Below are positions 18,005 to 54,712 of a stretch of DNA of 64,000 nucleotides, piece by piece (within the stretch, counting starts at the first letter, position 1; every line of letters begins with the position of its first letter). The notes under the pieces were generated by a model that was not told where the DNA came from, searched no databases, and worked only from the letters and a program-made list of their open reading frames with translations. The stretch is taken from the NCBI RefSeq assembly GCF_002890915.1, contig NZ_POUT01000003.1, positions 248,001-312,000 of the forward strand, given 5' to 3'. The stretch comes from Stutzerimonas stutzeri. Its GTDB lineage: Bacteria > Pseudomonadota > Gammaproteobacteria > Pseudomonadales > Pseudomonadaceae. The position numbers and the translations under genes were made by a program.

Positions 18005-19585
18005 ATGTCTCATCCTGACATTCACGCCCACCGCATCCTGATCCTCGACTTCGGTTCGCAATACACCCAATTGATCGCCCGCCGTGTGCGCGAGATCGGC
18101 GTCTACTGCGAGCTGCACCCATGGGACATGAGCGAAGAGGATATCCGTGCCTTCGCTCCGCGCGGCATCATCCTCGCCGGTGGCCCGGAGTCGGTCCATG
18201 AGCAAGGCAGCCCGCGCGCGCCGCAGGTGGTGTTCGACCTCGGCGTGCCGCTGTTCGGTATCTGCTATGGCATGCAGACCATGGCCGAGCAGCTCGGCGG
18301 CAAGGTACAGGGCTCGGATATCCGCGAGTTCGGCTATGCGCGCGTCGACCTGGTCGGCAAGTCGAAGCTGTTCGACGGCATCGAGGACCACATGGACGAC
18401 GACGGCGTGTTCGGCCTCGACGTCTGGATGAGCCATGGCGACAAGGTCACCGAGATTCCGGCCGGCTTCCACATCCTCGCCAGCACGCCGAGCTGCGCGA
18501 TCGCCTCCATGGGCGACGACACCCGCGGCTACTACGGCGTGCAGTTCCACCCGGAAGTGACCCACACCCGCCAGGGCGGGCGCATCCTGTCGCGCTTCGC
18601 CCTGGAAATCTGCGGCTGCGAGGCGCTGTGGACGCCATCCAACATCGTCGAGGACGCTATCGCTCAGGTGCGCGCCCAGGTCGGCAATGCCAACGTGCTG
18701 CTCGGCCTTTCCGGCGGGGTGGATTCCTCGGTGGTCGCCGCATTGCTGCACAAGGCCATCGGCGACCAGTTGACCTGCGTGTTCGTCGACAACGGCCTGC
18801 TGCGCCTGCACGAGGGCGACCAGGTGATGGCCATGTTCGCCGAGAACATGGGCGTCAAGGTGATCCGCGCCGATGCCGAGGCGCAGTTCCTCGCCAACCT
18901 GGCCGGCGAAGCCGACCCGGAGAAGAAGCGCAAGATCATCGGCCGCACCTTCATCGACGTGTTCGACGCCCAGGCCAGCAAGCTGGAGAACATCAAGTTC
19001 CTCGCCCAGGGCACCATCTACCCGGACGTCATCGAGTCGGCCGGCGCCAAGAGCGGCAAGGCCCACGTGATCAAGTCGCACCACAACGTCGGCGGCCTGC
19101 CGGAAGAAATGAACCTGCAACTGGTCGAGCCGCTGCGCGAGCTGTTCAAGGACGAGGTGCGCAAGATCGGCCTGGAACTGGGCCTGCCCTACGACATGGT
19201 CTACCGCCACCCCTTCCCGGGCCCGGGCCTGGGCGTGCGCATCCTCGGCGAGGTGAAGAAGGAATACGCCGACCTGCTGCGCCGTGCCGACCACATCTTC
19301 ATCGAGGAACTGCGCAACTTCGACTGGTACCACAAGACCAGCCAGGCCTTCGTGGTGTTCCAGCCGGTGAAATCGGTCGGTGTGGTCGGCGACGGCCGCC
19401 GCTACGCCTGGGTCGTCGCCCTGCGCGCGGTGGAAACCATCGACTTCATGACCGCGCGTTGGGCGCACCTGCCCTACGAGCTGCTGGAGAAGGTCTCCAA
19501 CCGTATCATCAACGAGATCGAAGGCATCTCCCGCGTCACCTACGACGTGTCGAGCAAACCGCCGGCGACCATCGAGTGGGAATGA
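18005..19585 (+). CDS. guaA: GMP synthase (glutamine-hydrolysing)
   Basis: 526 aa. The N-terminal class I amidotransferase domain has nucleophile C87 in GICYGMQT and the H182/E184 pair in QFHPEVTHT. The ATP-pyrophosphatase P-loop SGGVDSS is at 236-242, and the C-terminal dimerisation domain ends [14 protein letters not shown]. It converts XMP to GMP. AAGGAAAG lies upstream of the start. The last codons (GAG TGG GAA TGA) form the left attachment site of the integrative element; the reading frame is intact because the junction preserves the coding sequence. Confidence 0.97.
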
Positions 19586-19588
19586 TCC
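19574..19588 (+). other. attL
   Basis: GAGTGGGAATGATCC: the last three sense codons and stop of guaA plus three bases. Matches the attR copy at 31970 with one difference. Confidence 0.8.
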
Positions 19589-19631
19589 AGTAGCGTTTTT
19601 TACCGTTCAACGTCATTTGCAAAACCCGCCG

Positions 19632-19658
19632 AGGCCCCTGTAAACACAGGGGCCTTTG
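19632..19658 (+). terminator. Terminator behind guaA, supplied by the element
   Basis: AGGCCCCTG, loop TAAACA, CAGGGGCCT, then TTG. A 9-bp perfect stem 47 bp past guaA. It lies inside attL, so it belongs to the element rather than to the original guaA tail. Confidence 0.65.
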
Positions 19659-19750
19659 TGTTTCTGCCGTTCACTAACTATCATCGGGAAACACTTGCTG
19701 GCGACGGTCGATCTGGCGGCGGTTTCTGCCGACACCTCACCGACCGGATT

Positions 19751-19791
19751 TTTACCGCCAGCCCCCTGTGACGGTAAACGGTGACGGTAGA
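19751..19791. promoter_or_regulatory. Candidate integrase arm-type sites
   Basis: TTTACCG (19751, inverted), GACGGTAAA (19770) and GACGGTAGA (19783) cluster just before the integrase start, and a further TTTACCGTT lies at 19599. The same GACGGTAAA occurs at 31886 near attR. Their spacing and placement on both sides suit arm-binding sites, and they could also bind a regulator of int. Confidence 0.4.
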
Positions 19792-19801
19792 GGGCGCGAA
19801 C

Positions 19802-21070
19802 GTGCTGACGGATACGAAACTCAAGAGCCTTAAGGGCCGGGAGAAGGCTTACAAGGTGGCGGACCGCGAAGGGCTTTACGTGGTCGTGTCGCCCAAGGGC
19901 ACCGTGACCTTCCGGTACGACTACCGGATCGCCGGACGGCGCGAGACGCTGACCATTGGGCGCTACGGGGCGGACGCTATGTCGCTCGCCGAGGCGCGCG
20001 AGGAGCTGACCCTGGCGCGCAAGCTGGTGCATGACGGTATTTCTCCAGCCCAGCAGAAGGCCGAGGGGAAGAAGGCCACCAGCGATATCGACACGTTCGA
20101 GGCGCATGCCGGTATCTGGCTGCGCGACGCCGACCTGGCCGAGAGCACCGCAGCTATGCGCAAGAGCATCCTCGACCGGGACGTGCTGGCCGAGCTGGGC
20201 AAGCGCCGAATGGACGAGATCAAGCCGTCGCACGTCATCGCCCTGTGCGACAAGATCAAGGGGCGAGGGGCGCCGGCCACGGCGGTGCACGCCCGCGAAA
20301 TCATCCAGCAGATTTACCGTCACGCCAGCGGGCGCGGCCTGGACCTAGAGAACCCCGCCGAGGCGGTCAAGTCGTCCAGCATCGCCACCTTCAAGCCGCG
20401 CGAGCGTGCACTGGCGCCGGACGAGATCCGCCGCTTCTTGGTGGCGCTGGATGGCTTGGGCGGCACTATGCCCATGTTCAAGCTGGCGCTGCGCGCGATC
20501 CTGCTGACGATGTGCCGCAAGGGCGAGATCATCCATGCGAAGTGGAACGAGGTCGACTTCGCCGGCGCGGTTTGGACCATCCCAGCGGCGCGGATGAAGG
20601 CCGGCAGGGCGCACCGCATCTACCTGAGCCGGCAGATGATCGACCTTCTGGTCGCGCTCAAGGCGTGGGCAGGGAGCAGCCCCTACGTGCTGCCCGGTCG
20701 GTATGAGACGGACCAGCCGATCAGCGACGCCACGCTGAACCGAGTCATTACCCTGACCCTCAAGAAGCTGGAGAAGGACGGCGACCCGATGCCGCCGTTT
20801 ACCGTCCACGACCTGCGGCGCACCGGCTCGACGCTGCTGCACGAGGCGGGCTTCAATTCCGACTGGATCGAGAAGTGCCTGGCGCACGAGCAGAAGTCTG
20901 TGCGGGCGATCTACAACAAGGCGCAGTTCGCCGGCCAGCGCCGCGTCATGCTGCAAGCCTGGGCCGATATGGTCGACGCGTGGGTGCGCGGCGAGAGCGC
21001 GAAGACGATCATCAGCGAGGCCCGAATCGCGGCGATGGAAGCCGCCGACGGTATCGACGGGGATCTGTGA
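19802..21070 (+). CDS. Tyrosine recombinase / P4-type integrase
   Basis: 422 aa from the GTG at 19802 (LTDTKLKSLKGREKAYKVADREGLYV), which matches the usual opening of the DUF4102-containing P4 integrases. An in-frame GTG at 19781 is less likely. The catalytic tetrad region is visible: R239 (LTMCRKGEI), H336 and R339 (VHDLRRTGS), H362 (LAHEQ) and nucleophile Y371 (RAIYNKAQ). It should catalyse insertion at, and with a helper excision from, the guaA 3' end. Its stop overlaps the next start (TGATG). Confidence 0.92.
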   Translation: MLTDTKLKSLKGREKAYKVADREGLYVVVSPKGTVTFRYDYRIAGRRETLTIGRYGADAMSLAEAREELTLARKLVHDGISPAQQKAEGKKATSDIDTFEAHAGIWLRDADLAESTAAMRKSILDRDVLAELGKRRMDEIKPSHVIALCDKIKGRGAPATAVHAREIIQQIYRHASGRGLDLENPAEAVKSSSIATFKPRERALAPDEIRRFLVALDGLGGTMPMFKLALRAILLTMCRKGEIIHAKWNEVDFAGAVWTIPAARMKAGRAHRIYLSRQMIDLLVALKAWAGSSPYVLPGRYETDQPISDATLNRVITLTLKKLEKDGDPMPPFTVHDLRRTGSTLLHEAGFNSDWIEKCLAHEQKSVRAIYNKAQFAGQRRVMLQAWADMVDAWVRGESAKTIISEARIAAMEAADGIDGDL

Positions 21071-21468
21071 TGCGCTCGCCCGCCGAGCTGCTACGCGAGG
21101 CCATGCGAGGCGACGCCACGGCTGCGGCCGAGCTGTGGCAAGCCATCGCCGAGGGCAGGGCGGACGACGCGACGACGCTCGCCTGGGCGCGTGAAGTGGC
21201 CGTGCAGGTTGTGGCTAAGGTGCTGCCGTCGGACCTTCCGGCGAATCGGCGCGCGGAAAAGGCCCGCATGGCGCTGGGCCTCGAAGGCCGGATCGACACC
21301 AACCGGGAGCTGGCCGATTGGGTGGAGTTTGCCGGCGACGGCGCAACAGCCTCGGAGCTGGCCGAGATCGCCGACTTGGTGGTGGACGTCGGCAAGGCTA
21401 AGCCGCACCAGCTCAAGCGAAAGATCGAGCACATTCGCCAGAAGCGAAGGAAGCAACCGAAGGAGTAG
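21070..21468 (+). CDS. Hypothetical element protein
   Basis: 132 aa, soluble. An acidic alanine-rich N-terminal half ends in a strongly basic tail (KPHQLKRKIEHIRQKRRKQPKE), which suggests nucleic-acid binding. I recognise no family. Translation is probably coupled to the integrase through the one-base overlap, so it may act with it. A rho-independent terminator begins at its stop codon. Confidence 0.6.
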   Translation: MRSPAELLREAMRGDATAAAELWQAIAEGRADDATTLAWAREVAVQVVAKVLPSDLPANRRAEKARMALGLEGRIDTNRELADWVEFAGDGATASELAEIADLVVDVGKAKPHQLKRKIEHIRQKRRKQPKE

Positions 21469-21491
21469 GCCCGCCGCGTACGGGCCTTTTT
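21468..21491 (+). terminator. Rho-independent terminator of the integrase unit
   Basis: GGCCCG, 7-nt loop, CGGGCC, then TTTTT. It starts on the last base of the preceding stop codon. Confidence 0.75.
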
Positions 21492-21596
21492 CTTGCCCCC
21501 TGCAGAACGCGCAACAAATCACACGGACGACTTTGTATCGCCCTGTGCCTAACTATCCGTGTCGTTCCATTCCTATCCGCACCGGAGAACGACACG

Positions 21597-21860
21597 ATGC
21601 AACCAATCAAGCGAACGATCCGCCGCCCGGAAGTCCTGGCGAAAACCGGCCTTTCGGCCACCACCATCTACAACCTGGAGAAGCGCGGCGAGTTCCCCCA
21701 GCACTTCATGCTGACGCCGCGCTGCGCCGTCTGGTTCGAAGCAGAGGTCGACGCTTGGCTCGACGAGCGTATGGCTGCGCCGGCCAAGTCCACCCCGGCG
21801 CCGGACGTGGCGCTGCGCAAGTCCAGCCGTGGGCGTGTGGCCCTGGAGGTGCGGGCATGA
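21597..21860 (+). CDS. AlpA-family DNA-binding regulator
   Basis: 87 aa. The winged-helix pattern of AlpA/excisionase-like proteins is clear: RRPEVLAKTGLSATTIYNLEKRGEFPQ, then RCAVWFEAEVDAWLDERMA. AlpA proteins in P4-type elements activate integrase/excision genes or serve as recombination directionality factors. A second, different AlpA-like gene lies at 25917. The stop overlaps the next start (ATGA). Confidence 0.8.
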   Translation: MQPIKRTIRRPEVLAKTGLSATTIYNLEKRGEFPQHFMLTPRCAVWFEAEVDAWLDERMAAPAKSTPAPDVALRKSSRGRVALEVRA

Positions 21861-22036
21861 ACCTGCAAGCAATGGACGCCCTCGTAGCCCGCTTGCTTCA
21901 AGCGCAGGCCGTCCTCAGCGCGTGCCGGGCGGCCGAGGGCACCCTGGCCCAATACGAAGTGCTTAACGCGATGTGGGCTGCCCAGGATCTGCTGCAACAG
22001 GCCCTGGAATCCGCCGGCAAGCTGCAGAACAAATAG
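21857..22036 (+). CDS. Small hypothetical helical protein
   Basis: 59 aa, predicted mostly alpha-helical (MDALVARLLQAQAVLSACRA, AQDLLQQALESAGKLQNK). It is coupled by an ATGA overlap to the AlpA-like gene and followed by a terminator, so the two make one short operon. Family unknown. Confidence 0.55.
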   Translation: MNLQAMDALVARLLQAQAVLSACRAAEGTLAQYEVLNAMWAAQDLLQQALESAGKLQNK

Positions 22037-22056
22037 TCCAGCCGATCCACCCTGAA

Positions 22057-22080
22057 GGCCCGCCATCGCGCGGGCCTTTT
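22057..22080 (+). terminator. Rho-independent terminator of the AlpA operon
   Basis: GGCCCGC, 6-nt loop, GCGGGCC, then TTTT, 20 bp past the stop of the small gene. Confidence 0.75.
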
Positions 22081-22256
22081 CGTTGATCCGTACAACCGGC
22101 TAGATGTTTGACGTTGCTTTTGGCGGTTGGTTAAATGGCCCCAGCAGAAAGCCGGCCGGGTGGCTCAAGTCCCGGATCGCCACCAGTTGCGCCGCCGTGA
22201 TCGCCATCCGACGGGAGGCTGGCCGGCGCAGCGAATACCGGGTGCATCCGGCAGAT
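22081..22256 (+). other. Geneless segment ending in a strong terminator; possible small RNA
   Basis: About 175 bp between the terminator at 22057 and the one at 22257. A frame starting ATG at 22104 has no ribosome site and runs through the terminator, so I do not call it. A segment closed at both ends by terminators, with no supported gene, would suit a small RNA of up to about 170 nt or the leader of the downstream operon. Confidence 0.3.
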
Positions 22257-22307
22257 GGCGCAGTGAGAAGTCACTGCGCCTTTTTCATTTCTGCGCGCAG
22301 TGACTTC
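22257..22307 (+). terminator. Terminator with a third repeat copy downstream
   Basis: GGCGCAGTGA, loop GAAG, TCACTGCGCC, TTTTT: a perfect 10-bp stem (22257-22285). A third copy, GCGCAGTGACTTC (22295-22307), is a perfect complement of GAAGTCACTGCGC (22267-22279). It lies 17 bp before the small gene at 22325. The terminator is solid. Whether the extra copy is an operator or an alternative hairpin is open. Confidence 0.7.
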
Positions 22308-22324
22308 GGACCCGAGGTCACACA

Positions 22325-22534
22325 ATGGAAATCGAGCACATCACCAGCGGCATCGAAGAATACCGCCTGACCTGCGCGGAGTTCGCCGCGCTGAACCGCG
22401 TCAAGCCCGAAACCGTCCGCGAGCGCATTTGCCGGACCGGCTCATATCACGGCGTTCGCCCCCGCAAACTCGCCAGCCGCCGCCTGCTGTTCCCTGCCGT
22501 GCAGGTTGCTCTGGTGCAAGGGGGTGAGGAATGA
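22325..22534 (+). CDS. Small DNA-binding/excisionase-like protein
   Basis: 69 aa. EYRLTCAEFAALNRVKPETVRERICRTGS reads as a helix-turn-helix of the excisionase/MerR-like type, followed by a basic strand (RPRKLASRRLLFPAVQVALVQ) similar to the wing that specifies site recognition. It overlaps the primase-helicase gene by four bases, so it is the first gene of the replication operon and could control it. Confidence 0.6.
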   Translation: MEIEHITSGIEEYRLTCAEFAALNRVKPETVRERICRTGSYHGVRPRKLASRRLLFPAVQVALVQGGEE

Positions 22535-25254
22535 GCGCCGGAAATGAAAACGCCCAACGTGTGACCAGCACGTCGGGCGTCGATACAGCAGAGCAGCTTG
22601 GTGAGAGAACAAGCGTCGACAGTATGGCGGCTGTACAAGAAATGAGCAACCGCCCAGCTGCGAGCACGTCCGACACCCTTGCGGTTCTTCGTCATTCCAA
22701 CCTGCACCTGGCGAAAACCTGGCTGGCCGACGGCGAGATCAGCGCCTACGGCGACGGAAAGCAGTTCAGCCTGGAGCCGGTCGAGGTGGGCGACATTTTC
22801 GGGCTGTCTGAATTGCTGCAGCGCCTGGAGCGCGACAAGCATGCGTGCGTCATACGCGGGCGCTACGTAGGCGACGAACTGGCGAAGGAACGCACCGCGC
22901 CGGAGGACTACAGGCGCGGCAAGGTGCTGCGACGGAAAACGCATTTCGACGACCAGCCGCTGCACTCGGTGCTGATCGAGGTAGACGACTTCGAGCCGAT
23001 CACCGCCGATCCGATCCTCGAGCCGGCGCTGGCGGTCGAGGAGTTCATCCAGAGCAGCCTGCCCGACCCGTTCCTTTGCGCCAGCTACCACTGGCAGCTA
23101 TCGAACAGCGCTGGCTGGCGCAAGAATGTCGGCAAGCTCAAGGTACATATTTGGTTCTGGCTGTCGGAGCCGCGCACGTCTGCCGAGCTGAAAGAGTGGG
23201 CCGGGGCTGTCGGTCTTCCCGCTGACACGTCGGTATTCGACTCAATCCAAGTCCACTACACCAGCGCCCCCGTGTTCCAAGTCGGCGTCTCCGACCCGGT
23301 GCCCGTGCGCAGCGGCTTCGTGCATGGCCTGTGCAGCGACTCGGTAGAGCTGGACATTGAGCCGGCGATCCTCGCGGCGGCTGCTGAGCGTGCGCAACGC
23401 AAGCGGCGCAACCCGCTGGAGCGTACCGGCGAGCACGACGACCTGGCCGAGTACCTGCTGGGGAAGTGGGAGGTGCGCGGCGAAACCCCGGACGGTACCG
23501 GACTGCACATCCGCTGCCCCTTCGACGCTGAGCACACCAGCGACACGGGGCCTTCCTCAACGACCTACTTCCTGAAAGGCACGGGCAGCTTCGAGCGCGG
23601 GCATTTCGTCTGCAAGCACGACCACTGCGCGGGGCGCACCGACGGCGACTTCCTGCATGCGATCGGCTACCTGGGCGACGACTTCGACGATCTGCCCGAG
23701 CCGAGCGAGGAGGAGAAGGCCGAGCAGGAGGCAATCCGCCAGCGCAATGCGGAGCGCGCCGAGCGCATCGCAGAGGCTGCTGTCGAGCGTGCCCGATTCG
23801 AGGGTGGCCGTGACGCCCTGGAAGCCGAACGGCGGGAGTACCAGAAGCGGGAGAACGAGAAGATCGGCGAGGGCGAGCACAAGATCCCCGTGGCCGAGCT
23901 GGTCACGCTGGAGGCGGCGATCAACCGCTTCGTGTTCCTGGCCGATGGCTCGCGCGTGGCCGACGTGTTCAACCCGCACTATGACCTGGCCTTCGCCGAC
24001 TGGGCCGCAGCGCATGCCGCATCGGTCGAGACTTTCCCGCAGCCCGACAAGGAACTGGCCAACGGCAAGACCAAGAAAATGCCCGACAAGATTGTCGCGG
24101 TGAGCGAGTTGTGGCGCGCATCACCCCGGCGCAAGACCGCCGTGTGCCGGACGTTCAAGGCTGGCGGTGCGCTGGTGCTGCCCGACCCGGAGGGGCGCAT
24201 GGCGCTCAACACTTGGCGCCCGTTCGACCGTAGCCTGGCAGTGGATGACCTGCAGGTGGCTGGCGTGGACCTGTTCGTCGAGCACGTCAACTTCCTGTTC
24301 GGCGCCGATGCTGACCGCTTCCTCGACTGGCTTGCCCACATCGAGCAGCGCCCAGGCGAGCTACCACACACCGGATGGCTGCACATCGCCAAGAACTTCG
24401 GCATGGGCCGCAACTGGCTGTCGTCGGTACTGGCTCGCGTGTGGGCCGGCGCCGTGGCCGTCAACCTGGATCTGGTCGGCATGCTGCGCACCGGTTTCAA
24501 CGGGCGCCTGTCGCGCAAGGTGCTGGCGGTGGTCGACGAGATTCGCGAGGGCGGGCGGGATTCGCAGTGGGAGCACAGCGAGAAGCTGAAAAGCACCATC
24601 ACTGAGGAAACCCGCGTCATCAACCCGAAGTTCGGGCGCCAGTCCGTTGAGTTCAACGCTTGCCGCTGGCTGATGTTCTCGAATCACCTGTCGGCGATCC
24701 CGCTGGAGAGTGGCGACCGGCGCGTCGAGGTCGTGGCGACCGAAGCCGCACCGAGGGGCGCGGACTACTACGCCAAGCTGTACGCCGCTTTGAAGTCGCC
24801 GCAGTTCATCGCCGCCGTGGCTGCGTTCCTTGGCAGTCGTGACCTGAGCCGCTTCAACCCCGGCGCGCACGCCGCGAACACCGAGGCGAAGAAAGCCGCG
24901 ACGAAAGCCAGCCAGTCGCCGATGGCCGAGGCGTGCCAGATGCTAATTGACCACTGGCCCGCCGACGTCATCACTGCGGCGCAACTGTTCGAGGTGTTGA
25001 CGGGCCAGTCGGACGGCTCGGTCTCGTCCGCGCATCGCCGGACCCTGGAGCAGTTCGGCATCGAGGCGCTACCCAAGCCGGTGAAGGTCAACGGCAAGGC
25101 CGTGCGCGTGTCGGCGGTGCGGAACAAAGGGCGGTGGAAGGCCGAGGCGGACCCGGCAGCAATCCGGGGGGAGTTGGCCAAGGTCGAGTTGGACCCCCTC
25201 GATATGCACTGCGCGCGGGACTACCTACTGGATCTGGTGGCCGACAAGGCGTAA
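22531..25254 (+). CDS. Primase-helicase (DUF5906-type, superfamily 3-like)
   Basis: 907 aa. The N-terminal half is a putative primase (SVLIEVDDFEPITADP; YHWQLSNSAG; VGKLKVHIWFWL). It is followed by a zinc-binding-like segment with IRCPFDAEH and FVCKHDHCAG (about 325-370), an acidic coiled coil, and a C-terminal helicase domain. The P-loop region reads FGMGRNWLS (623-630), with arginine where a lysine is usual. VLAVVDEIREGG near 665-675 is a plausible Walker B. Such proteins initiate and drive replication of P4-like satellites. A candidate origin follows directly downstream. Confidence 0.75.
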   Translation: MSAGNENAQRVTSTSGVDTAEQLGERTSVDSMAAVQEMSNRPAASTSDTLAVLRHSNLHLAKTWLADGEISAYGDGKQFSLEPVEVGDIFGLSELLQRLERDKHACVIRGRYVGDELAKERTAPEDYRRGKVLRRKTHFDDQPLHSVLIEVDDFEPITADPILEPALAVEEFIQSSLPDPFLCASYHWQLSNSAGWRKNVGKLKVHIWFWLSEPRTSAELKEWAGAVGLPADTSVFDSIQVHYTSAPVFQVGVSDPVPVRSGFVHGLCSDSVELDIEPAILAAAAERAQRKRRNPLERTGEHDDLAEYLLGKWEVRGETPDGTGLHIRCPFDAEHTSDTGPSSTTYFLKGTGSFERGHFVCKHDHCAGRTDGDFLHAIGYLGDDFDDLPEPSEEEKAEQEAIRQRNAERAERIAEAAVERARFEGGRDALEAERREYQKRENEKIGEGEHKIPVAELVTLEAAINRFVFLADGSRVADVFNPHYDLAFADWAAAHAASVETFPQPDKELANGKTKKMPDKIVAVSELWRASPRRKTAVCRTFKAGGALVLPDPEGRMALNTWRPFDRSLAVDDLQVAGVDLFVEHVNFLFGADADRFLDWLAHIEQRPGELPHTGWLHIAKNFGMGRNWLSSVLARVWAGAVAVNLDLVGMLRTGFNGRLSRKVLAVVDEIREGGRDSQWEHSEKLKSTITEETRVINPKFGRQSVEFNACRWLMFSNHLSAIPLESGDRRVEVVATEAAPRGADYYAKLYAALKSPQFIAAVAAFLGSRDLSRFNPGAHAANTEAKKAATKASQSPMAEACQMLIDHWPADVITAAQLFEVLTGQSDGSVSSAHRRTLEQFGIEALPKPVKVNGKAVRVSAVRNKGRWKAEADPAAIRGELAKVELDPLDMHCARDYLLDLVADKA

Positions 25255-25283
25255 GGGCGTCGGCAGTTTGCAGAGGGCATCGG

Positions 25284-25307
25284 GGCCGCCAGGGATGGCG
25301 GCCTTTT
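25284..25307 (+). terminator. Rho-independent terminator of the replication operon
   Basis: GGCCGCC, loop AGGGAT, GGCGGCC, then TTTT, 30 bp after the primase-helicase stop. Confidence 0.75.
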
Positions 25308-25325
25308 GCTGTGTGCGGATGGCGT

Positions 25326-25454
25326 GCGGTTACAGTGGTTACAGCGGTTACGCTGGTTTTATATCGGAGCCTGGAAAGAAATTCTCTTTTTTCTTTTAGC
25401 TGGGCTTTATGGAATCAGCGTAACCAGCGTAACCGCTGTAACCGCAACCACCGG
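25326..25454. other. Candidate replication origin with inverted iteron clusters
   Basis: Left cluster: three GGTTAC words and a final GGTT within 25326-25358, in the order GCGGTTACAG, TGGTTACAG, CGGTTACGC. Right cluster (25417-25454): the reverse-complement words, GTAACC three times ending in AACCACC. The 58 bp between them are AT-rich (TTTTTTCTTTTAG). Phased short repeats flanking AT-rich DNA next to a primase-helicase gene are the usual features of a satellite or plasmid origin. No experiment is implied. Confidence 0.6.
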
Positions 25455-25916
25455 AACAGGGCGGATTGCAGAAAATCTCAGGTTCGAGCGCCGCCAGCAC
25501 CGCGCGAAAGCGAAGCGCTTCGCAACGGGCAGTCTGCACATTTCTGCGGAAAACGCAGTTGGTCAAAAAATAACCAATTGCTTCGCCGCACGCGGCTGCC
25601 GGTAGCGTGAGGATGCCGCCAGCGTAACGGCTCCCGCCAATCGCTCATTTCCTATCGCTGCCTATCCGAATCATTGCTTACCAATCATTAACCGGACTCG
25701 GTGCGCCCAGCAGCGGCGCGACATTCAGCGATCCGGCTGGATTCTTTACCGTCAAGTCCGCCGCCCCGGCGCGCCGGTAATTCACTGACCCGCCCTGGCG
25801 CATTTCTTGGTGCGCTTTTCTGGAAGCCCCGAATGGCGCGGCCTCCAGCGGTGCACGTGACTCCTTGAGCAGCCTTTAGCCTGTACGGGTGATTACTAGC
25901 ACTCAGGAACTAGCGA
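25455..25916. other. Non-coding region right of the candidate origin
   Basis: About 460 bp with no gene I can support. It contains palindromes GCGAAGCGCTTCGC (near 25513) and TTGGT...AACCAA around an A-rich centre (near 25560), a TTTACCG word near 25747, and the probable promoter and leader of the second AlpA-like gene (GGAACTAGCG before 25917). It may extend the origin. Confidence 0.5.
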
Positions 25917-26114
25917 ATGGCAACCATCAAGCTCCTTACCTTCTCCGAAGCCGCCGAAGCGGTCGGACTGCACGAATCGACGGTGCGCCGGCTGGTCCAG
26001 CGCGGCGAGTTCGCGGCGCCTTTGATCCTTTCTCCGCGCCGGATCGCGTTCCGCGAGAAGGACGTCGAGGCCTGGCTTAACTCGCGCCCGGTACAGCAAC
26101 CCGACAACCAGTAA
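25917..26114 (+). CDS. Second AlpA-family regulator
   Basis: 65 aa. LLTFSEAAEAVGLHESTVRRLVQRGEFAAP is a helix-turn-helix, followed by SPRRIAFREKDVEAWLNSRP, the typical AlpA wing and C-terminal helix. It begins the rightward late operon (head-like and terminase genes), so it is positioned to control that operon. It is not a close copy of the AlpA-like gene at 21597. Confidence 0.8.
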   Translation: MATIKLLTFSEAAEAVGLHESTVRRLVQRGEFAAPLILSPRRIAFREKDVEAWLNSRPVQQPDNQ

Positions 26115-26139
26115 CCAGTCCCAGCAGAGAGCGATAGAC

Positions 26140-26802
26140 ATGACCGCACACGTTCAACAAATCAGACAACAGCAGCGCGAGCTGCTGGCCGAGCTGGACA
26201 AGCAAAGGATCGACCACGCCCAGCGCGCCCTGCAGCTCGTCGCGGACCCCACCGACCCGGATCTGATCGAGGCCGTCGAGGCATCGGTCGCCCGTATTGA
26301 GGCCCTGCAGAAGCGCCTGGCGCTGTTCGAGGCGGCTATCAGTGGCGCCCACGTGAAGGACGCCCAGGACGCCGAAGCGGCGCGTCTTAGTTTCGCAGTC
26401 GAGGCCCGCGAGCGGGCCAAAGGCTTGTGCGTCAAGCGCGAAGCGGTTGCGGGCCAAATCGACAAAACCATCGCAGTGCTGGGCAAGCAACTGGCCGAGT
26501 TCAATGACCTGTCCGCGCAGATCAGCCGCGCCGCGCACGACTGCACCAAGTCGATCACTGACAAGGATGACCGCTTCCGCCTGCAGAAGCTGCACCAGAC
26601 CGCTTCGCTGGCGCGCGCGGGCATAGATCACTCTCTCGGAGTGGCCCTGGTCGCAGCGCATGTCGGCGACGCCTTGGCAGAGGGCCGACCGGACCCCTTG
26701 GGGATGTTCAAGCGCGCTGAGGCGAAACCTCTTGCTGAATGCCTGAACTATCGCCAGGACAAGCTGCTGGCACACCTTGACGCCCAACTGCGCGGAGTAT
26801 GA
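26140..26802 (+). CDS. Coiled-coil hypothetical protein
   Basis: 220 aa, almost entirely helical, with long heptad-like stretches (QQIRQQQRELLAELDKQRID, VEASVARIEALQKRLALFEA, GQIDKTIAVLGKQLAEFND). No signal peptide or membrane segment. It lies between the AlpA-like gene and a capsid-decoration homologue, so a structural or assembly role is possible. No family recognised. It does not look like a major capsid protein. Confidence 0.6.
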   Translation: MTAHVQQIRQQQRELLAELDKQRIDHAQRALQLVADPTDPDLIEAVEASVARIEALQKRLALFEAAISGAHVKDAQDAEAARLSFAVEARERAKGLCVKREAVAGQIDKTIAVLGKQLAEFNDLSAQISRAAHDCTKSITDKDDRFRLQKLHQTASLARAGIDHSLGVALVAAHVGDALAEGRPDPLGMFKRAEAKPLAECLNYRQDKLLAHLDAQLRGV

Positions 26803-26806
26803 CTCG

Positions 26807-27193
26807 ATGATCCTTGACCACGGACTGACCTTCTCCGACCGCCAGCAGCTCATTGCCAGCGGCACCAGCACCAACACCATCGAGGCGCCCCAAGCCGCAC
26901 CGGCAGGCGAAAGCCTCGCGCTGCACGTTACCGTCATCGAGGAAACCGACACCGTGCTCGAAGTCGGCGACACCGCCCCGAGCCTGGCCGTGACTCTGCA
27001 GGACAGCGCCGACGGCGTGACCTTCGCCGACGTGGTGACGGTGAACAAGCCGGCAGCGCGCCGAGTGTTCGGCCTGCCGCTCGAAGGCCTCCCGATGCGC
27101 AAGTTCGCCCGCCTGAGCTACACGCTGAGCGGCGACGCCCCGACCTACACCATCACCGCCGCCCTGGTGCTGGGCGAGTCCTACGGAGCCTGA
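26807..27193 (+). CDS. Bbp16-like capsid cement/decoration protein
   Basis: 128 aa beta-rich protein beginning MILDHGLTFSDRQQLIASGTS, with a central LHVTVIEETDTVLEVGDTAPSLAVTLQDSADG and a C-terminal YTITAALVLGESYGA. This pattern resembles the cement proteins of BPP-1-like podoviruses (Bbp16 family), which decorate the capsid surface. The ATG at 26807 follows the previous stop by two bases. It is one of the few virion-type genes in the element, so it may modify a helper capsid or be a remnant. Confidence 0.6.
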   Translation: MILDHGLTFSDRQQLIASGTSTNTIEAPQAAPAGESLALHVTVIEETDTVLEVGDTAPSLAVTLQDSADGVTFADVVTVNKPAARRVFGLPLEGLPMRKFARLSYTLSGDAPTYTITAALVLGESYGA

Positions 27194-27195
27194 CC

Positions 27196-27333
27196 ATGAC
27201 CGACCTTTACGACCTGATGATCCTGGCCGGCGCTGCGCCGTTGCACGACGCCGAGCCGACCCTGCTTTGCCCTGCACCGGAAGCCGACGCCGGCACCGAG
27301 ACCGACACCGACGCCAGCGGCGAGGAGAACTGA
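27196..27333 (+). CDS. Small acidic hypothetical protein
   Basis: 45 aa (MTDLYDLMILAGAAPLHDAE, then a threonine/aspartate-rich acidic tail ending SGEEN). The start lies two bases after the previous stop, the end three bases before the next start, so it sits snugly in the operon. Family unknown. Confidence 0.5.
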   Translation: MTDLYDLMILAGAAPLHDAEPTLLCPAPEADAGTETDTDASGEEN

Positions 27334-27336
27334 GCC

Positions 27337-27987
27337 ATGTACGAGAAATGGGAATCCGAGCACTCGGCAACCGAAACCCAGGTGCGCGAGGAGCTGGGCT
27401 TGCTGAACCAACCGGTGAAGGCCGAGCGCGACGACAACGACGACCCGTTCGCCAACATGTTTCCGAGCATGGCGGAGGCGAAGTCCGAGGCCAAGACCGC
27501 CCCGGCTGCGCCGCTGGTCGAGGTGCCGGCAGATATACAAGCCATGCGCGAGCAGGCACGGGCCGAAGACCCCGCGCTTCGCATGTACCCGCCTGAAAAG
27601 CAGATCACGGCCATTTCCGAGAACGCATTCGACAGCGTGCCGGACATGCCCCAGGAGCAGCGCGTCGCCGTCGCCCACGAGCTGCGCCGGATGACCGCCG
27701 ACCTGGGCTTCGGCAACAACGACGTGAGCGAGCTGAACAACCGCATCCGCCAGATCGAGGCCAACCCGCTCGACGTCGGCCAGGCCCGCGCCGAGGCGTC
27801 GAAGCTGCTGGTGCGCGAGTTCGGCAAGGATGCAGATCGCGCACTCGCCGACGCTCGCAAGCTGGTGATGCGCGATCCGCGCGTGGCGCAGATCATCGAG
27901 CAGACCGGCCTGGGCGACGACCCGCAGACCATCCTCAAGTTCGCCAAGCAGGCGCGCAGCCTTCGCCAGAAGGGGAAACTGAAATGA
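27337..27987 (+). CDS. Hypothetical phage-type protein, scaffold-like
   Basis: 216 aa hydrophilic protein with an acidic N-terminal half (ERDDNDDPFANMFPSMAEAK) and a helical C-terminal half ending in DPQTILKFAKQARSLRQKGK, a basic tail. An acidic helical body with a basic tail is common in phage scaffolding proteins, and the gene follows a capsid cement homologue. The assignment is inference from composition and position. The C-terminal segment (ARKLVMRDPRVAQIIEQTGL) recalls other phage-associated hypothetical proteins. Confidence 0.5.
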   Translation: MYEKWESEHSATETQVREELGLLNQPVKAERDDNDDPFANMFPSMAEAKSEAKTAPAAPLVEVPADIQAMREQARAEDPALRMYPPEKQITAISENAFDSVPDMPQEQRVAVAHELRRMTADLGFGNNDVSELNNRIRQIEANPLDVGQARAEASKLLVREFGKDADRALADARKLVMRDPRVAQIIEQTGLGDDPQTILKFAKQARSLRQKGKLK

Positions 27988-28058
27988 TCCCGCTGACCTT
28001 TGAGCTGCTTACCGCCGCGCTGGCCCTGCTCGCCATCGTCGAGGAGGTGCTGGCATGA
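27984..28058 (+). CDS. 24-residue hydrophobic microprotein
   Basis: MIPLTFELLTAALALLAIVE followed by EVLA. It begins on an ATGA overlap with the gene before and ends on an ATGA overlap with the gene after, which argues that it is translated. It would form one short membrane helix. Function unknown; a spacer peptide for translational coupling is the alternative. Confidence 0.35.
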   Translation: MIPLTFELLTAALALLAIVEEVLA

Positions 28059-28252
28059 CCACCGACAAGACCATTGCGCTGGTCGAGCAGTGCGAGGGGC
28101 TGGCCATCAAGGCCGGCATCCTCGACGCGCACGACGTGCACGTGCGCCGAGAGGTGCGCGTGGCCCTGCTCGACGCCTTCGCGGCATCGCAGCGGGCCGC
28201 GTGCCTCGGCGACCTGCTGGACATGCGACGGATGAAGGGGGTGCAGGCATGA
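28055..28252 (+). CDS. Small hypothetical protein
   Basis: 65 aa, charged and helical (TIALVEQCEGLAIKAGILDA, RREVRVALLDAFAASQRAAC). Coupled by four-base overlaps on both sides and preceded by GGAGG. No family recognised. Confidence 0.5.
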   Translation: MTTDKTIALVEQCEGLAIKAGILDAHDVHVRREVRVALLDAFAASQRAACLGDLLDMRRMKGVQA

Positions 28253-28419
28253 CCCTGGCCGAGCGTTTCGAGCAACAGCAGCCGGTCGTTATCGACTGGC
28301 TGCGCCGGCAGCATTGGGGCGCCGACGCGCTCGCGCTCCAAGTGCATCACAACCCTTATCTGGTGGCGATCCTGCACGAGTACATCGAGCGGGAGCAGGC
28401 ACTACAGGCCGCAGCGTGA
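28249..28419 (+). CDS. Small hypothetical protein
   Basis: 56 aa (MTLAERFEQQQPVVIDWLRR, QVHHNPYLVAILHEYIEREQ). Probably three helices. ATGA-coupled to the preceding gene. No family recognised. Confidence 0.5.
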   Translation: MTLAERFEQQQPVVIDWLRRQHWGADALALQVHHNPYLVAILHEYIEREQALQAAA

Positions 28420-28428
28420 GGTGAGCGA

Positions 28429-28674
28429 ATGGCAAAGCGCATGGTGGCGGTGAACGAGCTGAATCTGCGCATTGGTGAGGATCACTGCAACGCGAAGCTG
28501 AGCAACCGAGACGTGGACTCGATCCGCGAACTGCACGAGGAGCACGGCGCGTCCTACGACCGGCTCTTGGACTGGTTTCCGGTGAGCAAGTCGCTGATAG
28601 CGAAGATTTGCCGGTACGAGATACGCGCGCAGACGCCAATGCGCTGGAGAGCGCCCCGTGCGCCGAGGAAATAA
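28429..28674 (+). CDS. Small helix-turn-helix protein
   Basis: 81 aa. LSNRDVDSIRELHEEHGASYDRLLDWFPVSKSLIAKICRY has the layout of a helix-turn-helix seen in phage NUMOD- or HNH-adjacent small proteins and small regulators. The C-terminal tail is basic (MRWRAPRAPRK). Overlaps the next gene by 17 bp. A DNA-binding role is inferred. Confidence 0.5.
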   Translation: MAKRMVAVNELNLRIGEDHCNAKLSNRDVDSIRELHEEHGASYDRLLDWFPVSKSLIAKICRYEIRAQTPMRWRAPRAPRK

Positions 28675-28963
28675 CGGCACCGGCTACGTTCCGACCCGGC
28701 TTGTTGCGCTTGCCTGCAACGCGACGGGGCACCCCGTCGGCGCCAGCCATCCCAACGCGAAACACGACGACACCCTACCGGCCCGAGCGCGCGAGATGCG
28801 CGCCCAGGGCTTGACCTATCGAGCCATCGGCGAGGCCTTGGGCGTGAGCGAGTGGACCGCGCGGCATTGGGCCGTCGGCGACCGCCGCAACGTGCCGGCC
28901 CAGCGCACGATCATGCGTCGCGTGCCGGTGCAGCAGCATGAGGAGCAGCACATTGACCAGTGA
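28658..28963 (+). CDS. Helix-turn-helix protein, possible packaging or regulatory factor
   Basis: 101 aa from a GTG (RRGNNGTGYVPTRLVALACN). The centre, ARAREMRAQGLTYRAIGEAL followed by GVSEWTARHW, is a Trp-repressor/resolvase-like helix-turn-helix. Such domains occur in small terminase subunits and in regulators. Position two genes before the large terminase favours either role. The start is uncertain because no strong ribosome site is present. Confidence 0.5.
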   Translation: MRRGNNGTGYVPTRLVALACNATGHPVGASHPNAKHDDTLPARAREMRAQGLTYRAIGEALGVSEWTARHWAVGDRRNVPAQRTIMRRVPVQQHEEQHIDQ

Positions 28964-29441
28964 AGTACAGCGCGCCGAGGGCGGGCTATTTATCCCAGGG
29001 CACGCGCCCCGCAGCCCCGGCAGGCCGAAGGGGCAAGGCCCCAGCGCTGCCGAGCAGGTGCGTGCGCTGATCGAGCCGCACAAGGCCGAGATCATTGCGA
29101 AGGCCGTCGAACTGGCCAAGGCCGGCGACCCGCAGTCGCTGCGCCTGTGCCTGGAGCGACTGGCACCAGCGCCACGGCCCGAGGCCGAGAAGGTAGTCGT
29201 GCCGGGGCTGGCCGATGCGCCGACCCTGCAGGCGAAGGCGACAGCCATCCTGGCCGCAGTGGCTGGGGGGCAGATCAGCGCCGAGGCCGGCGACAAGCTG
29301 CTGCGGATGCTGGACACCTACGGAAAGGCCGTGGTGCTGGACGAGCACGAGCGGCGCTTGCGCGCCATCGAGGAAGGCAAGCCCCGCCCCGGTGTGGCGG
29401 CACTGCTGGGCGACCGCTACGACGCGGAGGGCCTGGTATGA
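28953..29441 (+). CDS. DUF5681-like protein, small-terminase candidate
   Basis: 162 aa. An N-terminal basic motif (SPGRPKGQGPSAAEQVRALI) resembles the GRPKG-containing family found next to terminase genes. A helical region with ISAEAGDKLLRMLDTYGKAV follows. The TTG at 28953 is chosen because GAGGAG lies seven bases upstream; the in-frame ATG at 28938 has no such site. ATGA-coupled to the large terminase, which is the usual position of the small subunit. Confidence 0.6.
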   Translation: MTSEVQRAEGGLFIPGHAPRSPGRPKGQGPSAAEQVRALIEPHKAEIIAKAVELAKAGDPQSLRLCLERLAPAPRPEAEKVVVPGLADAPTLQAKATAILAAVAGGQISAEAGDKLLRMLDTYGKAVVLDEHERRLRAIEEGKPRPGVAALLGDRYDAEGLV

Positions 29442-31261
29442 GCGTGCAAGCATTCGAGCGCCGGCTGGCGACCCTGGAGGCGGCGAAGGCATCGGCGGGC
29501 ACGGGCGACCTGCGCCAGCAGATCCTGCACGCCCGTACCGTTGGCCCTGCGCCGACGCACACCCGCGACGAGCTGCAGGAACTGGCCGAGGGCGACAACG
29601 CCACCGGGCGCATTGCGCGCGGCTGGCTGCGCATTGGCTACGTGCTGCCAGGGCGCCCACGTGGGGAGCAGACGCCGGCAATCGACCCTGCCACGGCACT
29701 GCCGGCAATGGCAGGCTACCTGTACGACAAACCGCTAGAGTTTGTGCTGTTCGCCTATGACTGGACGCGCGACCGCTCGCTGGCCGTCGTTGAGCTGCCC
29801 GAACGGTGGAGGCTGATCTACGACAGCGAGCACGGGCCGGATGCGTGGGCGTGCGAGCTGCTGGAGCACTTGGGCGACTCGGTGCGCGCTCGCGGCTTCG
29901 ATGGGCGCAACGCGGTGGACGCGATCCGCGAGGCCATCAGCTCCGGCCACGGTATCGGCAAGTCTGCGATTACCGCCTGGCTGGTCAACTGGATCATGTC
30001 CACCCGTCCGAACGCGCGCGGCGTGGTCACTGCCAACACCGCCCCGCAGCTCGAATCGAAGACCTGGGCGGAGATCGGCAAGTGGACGAAGCGCAGCGTG
30101 TTCTGCGCATGGTTCGACGTGACGACCGGCAAGGGGTCCATGCGGATGACGGCCAAGGGCTTCGCTGAGTCCTGGCGCTGCGATGCGCAGACGTGCCGGG
30201 AGGAGAACAGCGAGAGCTTCGCCGGCCTGCACGCCGCCGACTCGACGGCCTTCTACGTGCTCGACGAGGCGTCCGCTATCCCGGCTGCGATTTGGGAGGT
30301 TCTGGAGGGCGGTTTGACCGACGGCGAGCCGCACGTCTATGCCTTCGGCAACCCGACCCGGAACAGCGGGCGCTTCTTCGAGGCGTTCAACGGCCAGCGG
30401 CACCGCTGGCACAGCCGGCAGATCGACAGCCGCAGTTGCCAGATCACCAACAAGAACCAGATTCAGGAGTGGATCGACGACTACGGCATCGGCTCCGACT
30501 TCGTGAAGGTCCGCGTGCTCGGCCAGTTCCCGAGCGCCAGCAGCCTGCAGTTCATCGGGCGCGAGCTGGTCAACGACGCCCAGGTGCGGGAGGTCGAGAT
30601 CGAGCGTTTCCAGCCCGTCATTCTCGGCGTTGACCCGGCCCGCTTCGGCGGCGACGCCTCGGTCATCTGGACCCGGCAGGGGAGGAACGCGCGGGACATT
30701 CCTCCGATCCGCCTGCAGGGTGTGGACACGATGACCCTGGCCGCGCGAGTGGCTGAGCACGCGAACTTTCTGCGCGGTGCTGGACATAGCGTCATCATCA
30801 ACGTGGACGGCGGCGGCGTGGGCGGCGGAGTGATTGACCGGCTGCGGTCGGTCGGCTTCGACGTGAACGAGGTGCAGTTCGGATCGAGGGCGCTGGACCC
30901 GCGCCGCTGGGCCAACCGGCGCGCGGAGATTTGGGGCCTGATGCGCGAATGGCTGGCCGGTGGTGCGATCCCGCGCGACGAGGGACTGGCGACGGACCTG
31001 TGCGCGGTGGAATACGGCTACAACGCCGCCGACGCGATCCTGCTGGAGAAGAAGGAGTCGATGAAGGCGCGCGGCTTGGCCTCGCCCGACTCGGCGGACG
31101 CCCTGGCCGTCACCTTCGCTGTGCCGGTGGCGCTGACCGTGCCGGGGCAGGAGCATCTGGAGCGGAACGACCAGCGCCGCGAGTACAACCCGTATGCGAG
31201 CACGCCGCGCGGCGACAAGCGCCGAGGCTACGATCCACTCGGCGCCCTGGGGCGTAGGTAA
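29438..31261 (+). CDS. Phage terminase large subunit
   Basis: 607 aa. A Walker A SGHGIGKS lies at 169-176 and a Walker B FYVLDE at 272-277, with a coupling motif region in YAFGNPTRNSGRFFEAF. The nuclease domain begins ILGVDPARFGGDASVIW (D399), continues with INVDGGGVGGGVIDRL, and ends SPDSADALAVTF. All ATPase and RNase H-like nuclease acidic residues appear intact, so DNA translocation and cleavage activity is likely. An unusual 90-residue N-terminal extension (GDNATGRIARGWLRIGYVLP) precedes the ATPase. This is the packaging motor of the element. Confidence 0.9.
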   Translation: MSVQAFERRLATLEAAKASAGTGDLRQQILHARTVGPAPTHTRDELQELAEGDNATGRIARGWLRIGYVLPGRPRGEQTPAIDPATALPAMAGYLYDKPLEFVLFAYDWTRDRSLAVVELPERWRLIYDSEHGPDAWACELLEHLGDSVRARGFDGRNAVDAIREAISSGHGIGKSAITAWLVNWIMSTRPNARGVVTANTAPQLESKTWAEIGKWTKRSVFCAWFDVTTGKGSMRMTAKGFAESWRCDAQTCREENSESFAGLHAADSTAFYVLDEASAIPAAIWEVLEGGLTDGEPHVYAFGNPTRNSGRFFEAFNGQRHRWHSRQIDSRSCQITNKNQIQEWIDDYGIGSDFVKVRVLGQFPSASSLQFIGRELVNDAQVREVEIERFQPVILGVDPARFGGDASVIWTRQGRNARDIPPIRLQGVDTMTLAARVAEHANFLRGAGHSVIINVDGGGVGGGVIDRLRSVGFDVNEVQFGSRALDPRRWANRRAEIWGLMREWLAGGAIPRDEGLATDLCAVEYGYNAADAILLEKKESMKARGLASPDSADALAVTFAVPVALTVPGQEHLERNDQRREYNPYASTPRGDKRRGYDPLGALGRR

Positions 31262-31314
31262 TTGCACCGCCATTGCGCTATAACTCCCGGCTTCGCAACG
31301 GAGCCGGGGGCGGC

Positions 31315-31893
31315 ATGAAAGGATGGCGGGCGATCAAATGGGCGCAGCGCCGTGTGCGCTGGGGCATGACAGGCCACGTTCACACCGACCGCGAAGTGCT
31401 CGAAGCGGTCCACGATCTGTACAAAGAGGACTTCATAACCAAGGTCAACGCAGGCGACGGGAGACCCATGATCCCTATCGACGTCCGCGCTGTCGCGTCT
31501 TCCTTGGGTATGAACGCCGACATGCTGTTCGGTCGGCTTTACTACGACCTGGCGCACCGGCTGCGCGTGCGTGACCCGAACAACTCGACGTTGGTTGCTG
31601 CATCGTTGTTCGAGCTTAAGGTCGGGACGGACAAGCACGTCGTTAACATCCCATACTTGGCTGCCGAGCTGGCACGGCAGAATGAGCAGCGGGCGCGCCA
31701 CATCTGGACCGTCTGGCTGGCCATCCTGGCGCTTACCGTGTCGGTTGCCTCTGCCATTCTGCAGTACCGCGCCCCCGAGCCGCTTACGGTCACGCAGTCT
31801 ACGAGCGCTGGCCAAGGTGTTGCGTGTCTGCGACCATTGCAAACGTCGCCCTCTCAAGCGACAGGGCCGAGCACATTTCCCGATGGACGGTAA
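31315..31893 (+). CDS. Hypothetical membrane protein, element cargo
   Basis: 192 aa. A soluble basic N-terminal domain (MKGWRAIKWAQRRVRWGMTG; VLEAVHDLYKEDFITKVNAG; IPIDVRAVASSLGMNADMLF) is followed near residue 140 by one membrane helix (HIWTVWLAILALTVSVASAI) and a short tail. The ATG at 31315 follows GGGGG. It is the last gene before attR, separated from the terminase by 53 bp, the position where satellites often carry accessory cargo. A defence or superinfection function is possible but has no sequence support. Confidence 0.55.
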   Translation: MKGWRAIKWAQRRVRWGMTGHVHTDREVLEAVHDLYKEDFITKVNAGDGRPMIPIDVRAVASSLGMNADMLFGRLYYDLAHRLRVRDPNNSTLVAASLFELKVGTDKHVVNIPYLAAELARQNEQRARHIWTVWLAILALTVSVASAILQYRAPEPLTVTQSTSAGQGVACLRPLQTSPSQATGPSTFPDGR

Positions 31894-31894
31894 A
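31886..31894 (+). promoter_or_regulatory. Candidate right arm-type site
   Basis: GACGGTAAA, identical to the word at 19770 near the integrase, lies 76 bp inside attR. A matching site on the other arm fits integrase binding. Confidence 0.35.
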
Positions 31895-31969
31895 TATGAC
31901 GCCTGTTCTCAAGGGGCTTGAGCTGGAGGCCCAGCATTTATGCGGTTTACGGCCTTCTCGTTGATAATT

Positions 31970-31984
31970 GAGTGGGAGTGATCC
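31970..31984 (+). other. attR
   Basis: GAGTGGGAGTGATCC. Preceded by ATT, it still spells Ile-Glu-Trp-Glu-stop, the C-terminus of GuaA, with one silent change (GAG for GAA). This is a guaA remnant at the right junction. Confidence 0.8.
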
Positions 31985-54263: not shown

Positions 54264-54339
<76 letters not shown>

Positions 54340-54390
54340 ATCTCGATCGCCACACCGGTCGCTTCGATCGGTCGCCTTTGAAGGGCTTGC

Positions 54391-54466
54391 GTCCCCTTCG
54401 TCTAGTGGCCTAGGACACCGCCCTTTCACGGCGGTAACAGGGGTTCGAGTCCCCTAGGGGACGCCA
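54391..54466 (+). tRNA. tRNA-Glu (TTC), copy 1
   Basis: 76 nt, GTCCCCTTCGTCTAGTGGCC to encoded CCA. Anticodon loop CTTTCAC in stem CCGCC/GGCGG gives TTC. Identical to the copy at 54637. Confidence 0.97.
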
Positions 54467-54515
54467 CTATTTCGCGATGCGTACTGCGCATCGCACGTCG
54501 CGAGACGCTAAATCC

Positions 54516-54591
<76 letters not shown>

Positions 54592-54636
54592 ATTTCCAGC
54601 GATCTGCAGAAGCATTGCGGTTCGTACGAAGGTTTC

Positions 54637-54712
54637 GTCCCCTTCGTCTAGTGGCCTAGGACACCGCCCTTTCACGGCGGTAACAGGGGTTCGAGTCCCC
54701 TAGGGGACGCCA
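54637..54712 (+). tRNA. tRNA-Glu (TTC), copy 2
   Basis: Same sequence as copy 1, 246 bp downstream of it. Last of the four tRNAs, followed by the terminator. Confidence 0.97.

Follow-up and report, generated by a model that had tools for sequence, protein, structure and literature searches.

A guaA island of Stutzerimonas stutzeri with its own terminase and no capsid gene, a probable satellite of epsilon15/BPP-1-like podophages

Can a genetic element with replication, packaging and shell-modifying genes, but without a portal or capsid gene, be a working phage satellite, or is it what a prophage left behind? The question is raised by a locus in S. stutzeri, which we analysed within a stretch of 64,000 nucleotides (the window). 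A preliminary description of this DNA had proposed a candidate satellite or remnant at 22325-31261. We consider it likely that the locus is an integrated satellite that belongs to a family not yet described and exploits epsilon15/BPP-1-like podoviruses, by the mechanism proposed below. The proposed extent was too narrow, as an integrase (19781-21070) and att repeats lie outside it, although the size of 12.4 kb given there agrees with ours: the island comprises 12,396 bp (19574-31969) inserted at the 3' end of guaA. All genes that had been named are present as intact ORFs. The features are as follows.

19574-19587, + strand: attL core GAGTGGGAATGATC, at the guaA 3' end, direct repeat of 31970-31983
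19781-21070, +: tyrosine integrase with P4-type arm domain (PF13356, PF00589; phrog_1, E 7e-79)
21070-21468, +: small protein (intact ORF; a relative adjoins the integrase in locus L073)
21597-21860, +: AlpA-like regulator 1 (phrog_66/2790; 70% identical in Thiobacillus element L072)
21857-22036, +: small protein (intact ORF)
22325-22534, +: small, probable HTH/excisionase-like protein (weak phrog_9834 match, E 0.22)
22531-25254, +: primase-helicase (DUF5906), 907 aa (phrog_16950, E 5e-99; PF19263)
25325-25446, no strand: candidate origin, three GGTTACRSY iterons with 9-bp spacing plus three inverted copies
25917-26114, +: AlpA-like regulator 2 (PF12728, PF05930; phrog_66)
26140-26802, +: coiled-coil protein (similar protein in the same place in L072, L075 and L076)
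26807-27193, +: cement (capsid decoration) protein, Bbp16 type
27196-27333, +: small acidic protein (intact ORF)
27337-27987, +: scaffold-like protein (C-terminal ~100 aa homologous to the scaffold-position ORF of epsilon15/BPP-1)
28055-28252, +: small protein (intact ORF)
28249-28419, +: small protein (intact ORF)
28429-28674, +: Bbp27-like small DNA-binding protein (57% identical to BPP-1 Bbp27)
28658-28963, +: second Bbp27-like HTH protein (HTH_23)
28938-29441, +: candidate small terminase (TerS), satellite-specific, DUF5681-like (PF18932, E 0.0012)
29438-31261, +: large terminase (TerL) with an N-terminal extension of ~75-95 aa (homology, tree, extension alignment)
31315-31893, +: protein with probable transmembrane helix (ORF after terL)
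31970-31983, +: attR core GAGTGGGAGTGATC, repeat partner of attL

Site-specific integration, a hallmark of phage satellites, is indicated by the att repeats at guaA (14 bp, with one mismatch in the window) and by the island's own integrase, whose arm, core and catalytic domains are all of P4 type. The same 12,396-bp element is located at guaA in another species of the genus (genome G164), where both 14-bp repeats are exact. The two copies differ at 6 positions across 12,396 bp, whereas guaA itself differs at ~120 positions in 1.57 kb (about 8%) and the chromosomes outside the element are 85-87% identical. This comparison shows that the element moved recently between species by horizontal transfer. 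A nearly identical copy in G164 despite the diverged guaA speaks against a fossil. An empty site with joined flanks was not found in 56 genomes of the genus. Throughout these genomes guaA is kept up to the att core and beyond it every genome differs; the spot to the right of guaA is therefore variable. From 31984 onward, the right flank of the window is absent from other genomes of the genus, and at 54264-54712 a tRNA-Ala(GGC)-tRNA-Glu(TTC) pair occurs twice in tandem.

The primase-helicase and the candidate origin of the preliminary description both held up. In its N-terminal part the primase-helicase is 45% identical to the counterpart in L076, and just 3' of its gene the candidate origin consists of six iterons, arranged as two inverted triplets flanking an AT-rich core. 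The two AlpA-like genes, the second of which has similar genes in all relatives, form a replication module together with the primase-helicase and the iterons.

The absence of portal, major capsid, tail and lysis genes was confirmed. No annotated ORF of the element matched portal, major capsid or lysis families in PHROGs and Pfam, and none matched the portal, capsid or tail proteins of epsilon15, BPP-1 and Tr60_Ab31. The sole tail-labelled match was a weak one of the cement ORF (phrog_9522, 4e-5). No portal or capsid gene was found hidden among the small genes at 26140-28963 by PHROGs, Pfam or direct phage comparison. With no portal, capsid, tail or lysis gene, the island is without genes needed for a particle, as satellites are. 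The reversed late-gene order was likewise verified: the window runs cement, scaffold, TerS, TerL, whereas epsilon15 and BPP-1 run TerS, TerL, portal, scaffold ORF, capsid, cement. After TerL, the island has only the putative membrane protein and attR, and the downstream portal and capsid of the epsilon15/BPP-1 type are absent; L072 likewise has a membrane protein gene after terL. Antisense to TerL there is a 512-aa open frame (29735-31273, - strand), most likely an artefact that stems from GC-rich codon usage.

The cement homologue is a member of the Bbp16 family. Among proteins of solved structure it matches 3j4u_H, the cementing protein of BPP-1 (E 1e-6), and 8cjz, a decoration protein (4e-5); further matches are phrog_427 (6e-10) and epsilon15 gp8 (2e-10). 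An alternative start at 26777 (TTG) was rejected, as the family alignment agrees with the ATG at 26807.

The scaffold-like protein proved to be a homologue of the ORF that immediately precedes the major capsid gene in the phages, its C-terminal ~100 residues being common to epsilon15 gp6, Bbp18 and Tr60 ORF06. By blastp, phage proteins were matched at 5e-10 by the protein of metagenomic fragment L098 and at 1e-4 by that of the window (Bbp18), and hhalign of the satellite against the phage scaffold families gave 94%. When a profile was made solely from phage ORFs that adjoin a capsid gene on its 5' side, satellite scaffolds ranked 1-3 among the 910 ORFs of the window and six loci (L098, 2e-7; L076, 0.0012; window, 0.0028). 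The window protein by itself matches only modestly (HMM E 0.0028). This protein alone gave no match in phage records and viral contigs, and its predicted fold (pLDDT 73) had no significant match in PDB and BFVD.

Database records annotate epsilon15 gp6 and BPP-1 Bbp18 (L081:5224-5940, L082:19715-20404; phrog_458) as protease. Because such proteins have a disordered acidic N-terminus, no Pfam protease match and a position before the capsid gene, they appear to fit a scaffolding protein, a renaming by this analysis. A motif, A-x-x-[LMF]-Y-x, lies within the last 14 residues of 16 of the 19 phage scaffold-position proteins (strict pattern). The satellite scaffold proteins of five loci carry 2-4 copies (composition shuffles, p 0.003 or less) and the window protein has one strict match (p 0.06, not significant), p-values that are optimistic since the pattern was chosen after both sets had been seen. 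CpmB of SaPI1 acts by sharing the C-terminal coat-binding motif of the helper scaffold (PMC5644958). Competition for coat protein is therefore the most economical reading of the scaffold-like protein, by analogy.

The large terminase is 38-47% identical to the terminases of epsilon15, phiV10, Tr60_Ab31 and similar phages and contains recognizable Walker A (SSGHGIGKS) and Walker B-like (FYVLDEA) motifs, in agreement with the earlier assignment. In a tree of 62 rows, in which BPP-1's own TerL is a long branch, nine satellite TerLs form one group (support 100/100) nested among epsilon15/BPP-1-type phages, with the complete phages outside the satellite clade. The nearest phage rows include contigs with a capsid protein 83-90% identical to that of BPP-1, their placing as sisters of the satellite TerLs having a support of only 89/57. 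All satellite TerLs share 75-95 extra N-terminal residues that are absent from phage TerLs. In samples of 391 and 398 genomes, the extended TerL occurred only in the S. stutzeri genome itself and a wider search otherwise found phage-type TerLs without the extension; the family is sparse.

The small-terminase candidate, whose gene overlaps terL by 4 bp, owes its name to this position and to weak DUF5681 similarity. It is 46-75% identical in all relatives and had one weak match in 50,697 phage records. The TerS of the satellites did not clearly resemble that of the phages with which it was compared, and the predicted fold of the candidate (pLDDT 66) had no significant match in PDB. TerL thus appears to have been taken from the phage type and TerS to be a different protein, as would be expected if DNA choice had changed.

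Outside the genus, the nearest TerLs (68-74% identical) were found in two Thiobacillus MAGs, Azonexus hydrophilus and a betaproteobacterial MAG; several relatives come from MAGs. Each of the four lies in an island that has an integrase, AlpA-like genes and replication genes and that ends, or nearly ends, with TerS-TerL, and no portal or capsid gene was found in any of them. The preliminary description had allowed for close relatives that are complete prophages, in which this segment is a decayed part; they are capsid-less islands instead. One Thiobacillus island and the Azonexus island are also inserted at guaA, the second Thiobacillus island (13,955 bp) is at tRNA-Ser, and the integrase of the betaproteobacterial island adjoins tRNA-Gly. 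Each related island has its own small selection of minor virion genes of epsilon15/BPP-1 type: three share the cement gene with the window, three have the internal virion protein Bbp12, one combines Bbp23 (67% identical), Bbp22 and a gp9-like gene, and the Azonexus island has gp15-, gp16- and gp17-like ejection proteins and no recognizable cement or scaffold gene. The same TerS-TerL pair occurs on metagenomic fragments L011, L098 and L099. When the two Thiobacillus islands were compared, dN/dS lay at about 0.1-0.25 in helicase, primase, coil, cement, TerS, TerL and a 149-aa gene; scaffold and Bbp12 were higher, at about 0.45-0.5. Purifying selection maintains the genes in the pairs that were compared.

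Using a capsid profile that recovers three positive controls, we found no epsilon15-type capsid gene in the genome itself, G164, the genomes of the four relatives or 56 genomes of the genus. As no resident helper capsid gene was found, the helper probably arrives from outside as an infecting phage. Capsids and portals of BPP-1 type were found in Xanthomonas and Stenotrophomonas phages of 43-44 kb.

We propose that helper infection would trigger AlpA-driven excision and that the excised circle would replicate from the iterons. The satellite TerS would then pick satellite DNA, and the satellite TerL, derived from the helper type, would dock on the helper portal. The scaffold-like protein may compete with the helper scaffold for coat protein via the shared C-terminal domain and, in most relatives, also via the repeated copies of the scaffold's terminal motif. 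It would thereby redirect shell assembly, the cement protein would stabilize the altered shell, and tail, lysis and most of the particle would be supplied by the helper. That this amounts to a new family, intermediate between PICI and cfPICI, with a private two-subunit terminase, helper capsids, a multivalent scaffold-motif mimic plus its own cement and, in some members, their own ejection proteins, is a wider claim whose chances we judge to be about even.

One variant, which belongs to the satellite reading and is compatible with it, is that head-to-tail multimers are packaged in unaltered helper capsids, in the manner of PICMIs (PMC10803314), and that the cement and scaffold-like proteins serve, for instance, interference with helper assembly. 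With three copies, the 12.4- and 13.96-kb elements would come to 37.2 and 41.9 kb, close to the 39-44 kb of a helper. However, PICMIs are without capsid-remodelling genes, while four of the five members here keep cement and scaffold-like genes, which are under selection in the tested pair; we consider the variant rather unlikely, though it is the strongest of the alternatives. The element has 0.29 of the BPP-1 genome length, close to the one-third that satellites typically have (PMC10803314), and small capsids and trimers in full capsids are both possible.

An epsilon15/BPP-1-like prophage that lost its portal-to-tail block and kept the leftovers would account for the descent of the TerL, cement, Bbp27-like and scaffold-like genes from that phage type, and no helper is resident. 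Against such decay stand the near-identical copy in another species, purifying selection, a TerS and a TerL extension found only in satellites, and the grouping of all island TerLs in one clade apart from all phages. Moreover, five islands in distant hosts have the same end and order and are not random leftovers. The decayed-prophage explanation is largely refuted and we regard it as improbable; the interspecies copy, selection and the architecture kept across distant hosts favour the satellite over the remnant.

Slighter still are the chances of a defence or interference island whose phage parts only block helper assembly and which spreads by other means: interference with helpers is common among satellites and no helper is resident here, but the fact that TerS-TerL, integrase, replication genes and iterons are maintained points to packaging of its own, and no known defence family was matched among the window proteins scanned.

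The preliminary description had suggested a comparison of the satellite with PICI, cfPICI and P4-like elements, and it fits none of them fully. It shares with PICIs and SaPIs the order integrase, AlpA/regulator, primase, origin, packaging, a TerS and, as proposed here, a scaffold-type capsid redirection (CpmB). The PICI core of integrase, AlpA-type regulator, primase and origin stands alongside a TerL and a structural cement protein; in contrast, PMC6092414 and PMC10690885 describe no TerL for PICIs, and these also differ from the relatives of the island, which carry ejection proteins, and in that these ejection genes, TerL and cement are of epsilon15/BPP-1 type. The cfPICIs have their own TerS and TerL, an integrase, a size of about 14 kb and need of a helper for the tail, but encode major capsid, protease, portal and connectors (PMC10690885), of which the island has none. 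P4-like satellites resemble it in P4-type integrase, AlpA, primase and size, and their Sid (size-determining scaffold) and Psu (decoration) are analogues of the island proteins; no Sid-, Psu- or Delta-type gene was matched in the island by PHROGs or Pfam, and P4 has the terminase of the helper act on its cos site (PMC10690885). PICMIs share the core of integrase, alpA and primase but have no identifiable packaging or capsid-remodelling genes, a type element of 6.1 kb (PMC10803314) and insertion at fis, in contrast to guaA, TerS-TerL and cement here. The Streptomyces satellites Mulch and Flayer have their own TerS, TerL and scaffold, but encode portal and capsid and no primase (PMC10690885). 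The epsilon15/BPP-1 podophages are the source type of the island's TerL, cement, Bbp27 and scaffold domain and of the relatives' Bbp12, Bbp22, Bbp23 and gp15-gp17, but are complete phages, 39-45 kb long, in which TerL is followed by portal and capsid. We therefore regard the island as a new variant of phage satellite outside the PICI, cfPICI, P4, PICMI and Streptomyces types as these are described, since their terminase, packaging and capsid gene contents differ.

The literature searched yielded neither a TerL-bearing capsid-less satellite nor any satellite described for podophages of the epsilon15/BPP-1 type. Judged by its description, a possible relative is a glacial scaffold of 15.8 kb that carries integrase, prim-pol, terminase and a tail gene and was reported to be a putative satellite (PMC4490671). 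Among the satellite types covered by this literature, those with their own TerL (cfPICIs, Mulch/Flayer; PMC10690885) also build capsid and portal, and the others use the helper TerL. TerS, TerL, scaffold and cement without capsid and portal would mean that packaging and shell control are separable from the shell, and the family, if real, would stand between PICIs (no TerL) and cfPICIs (whole head). The island offers concrete, testable cases of two things: a satellite TerL for which docking on a portal of foreign origin is a necessity, and scaffold mimicry as a means of redirecting capsids in bacteria other than staphylococci.

The TerL extension and the DUF5681-like TerS are handles for finding more such islands. 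In phage loci with enough flank, a portal gene is usually downstream of TerL. Two epsilon15-type TerS-TerL pairs between host genes (L009:8560-10655; L007:9403-11491, with only about 1 kb of sequence downstream) had no portal found downstream; they are either remnants or minimal elements of a different kind. A TerS-like ORF on one gut contig is accompanied by an apparent tape-measure gene. Six small islands from other genomes of the class (L100, L101, L104, L105, L107 and L111), with no recognizable TerL of satellite type, combine an integrase, replication or AlpA-like genes and a DUF5681/TerS-like gene, and possibly represent a broad class of minimal satellites.
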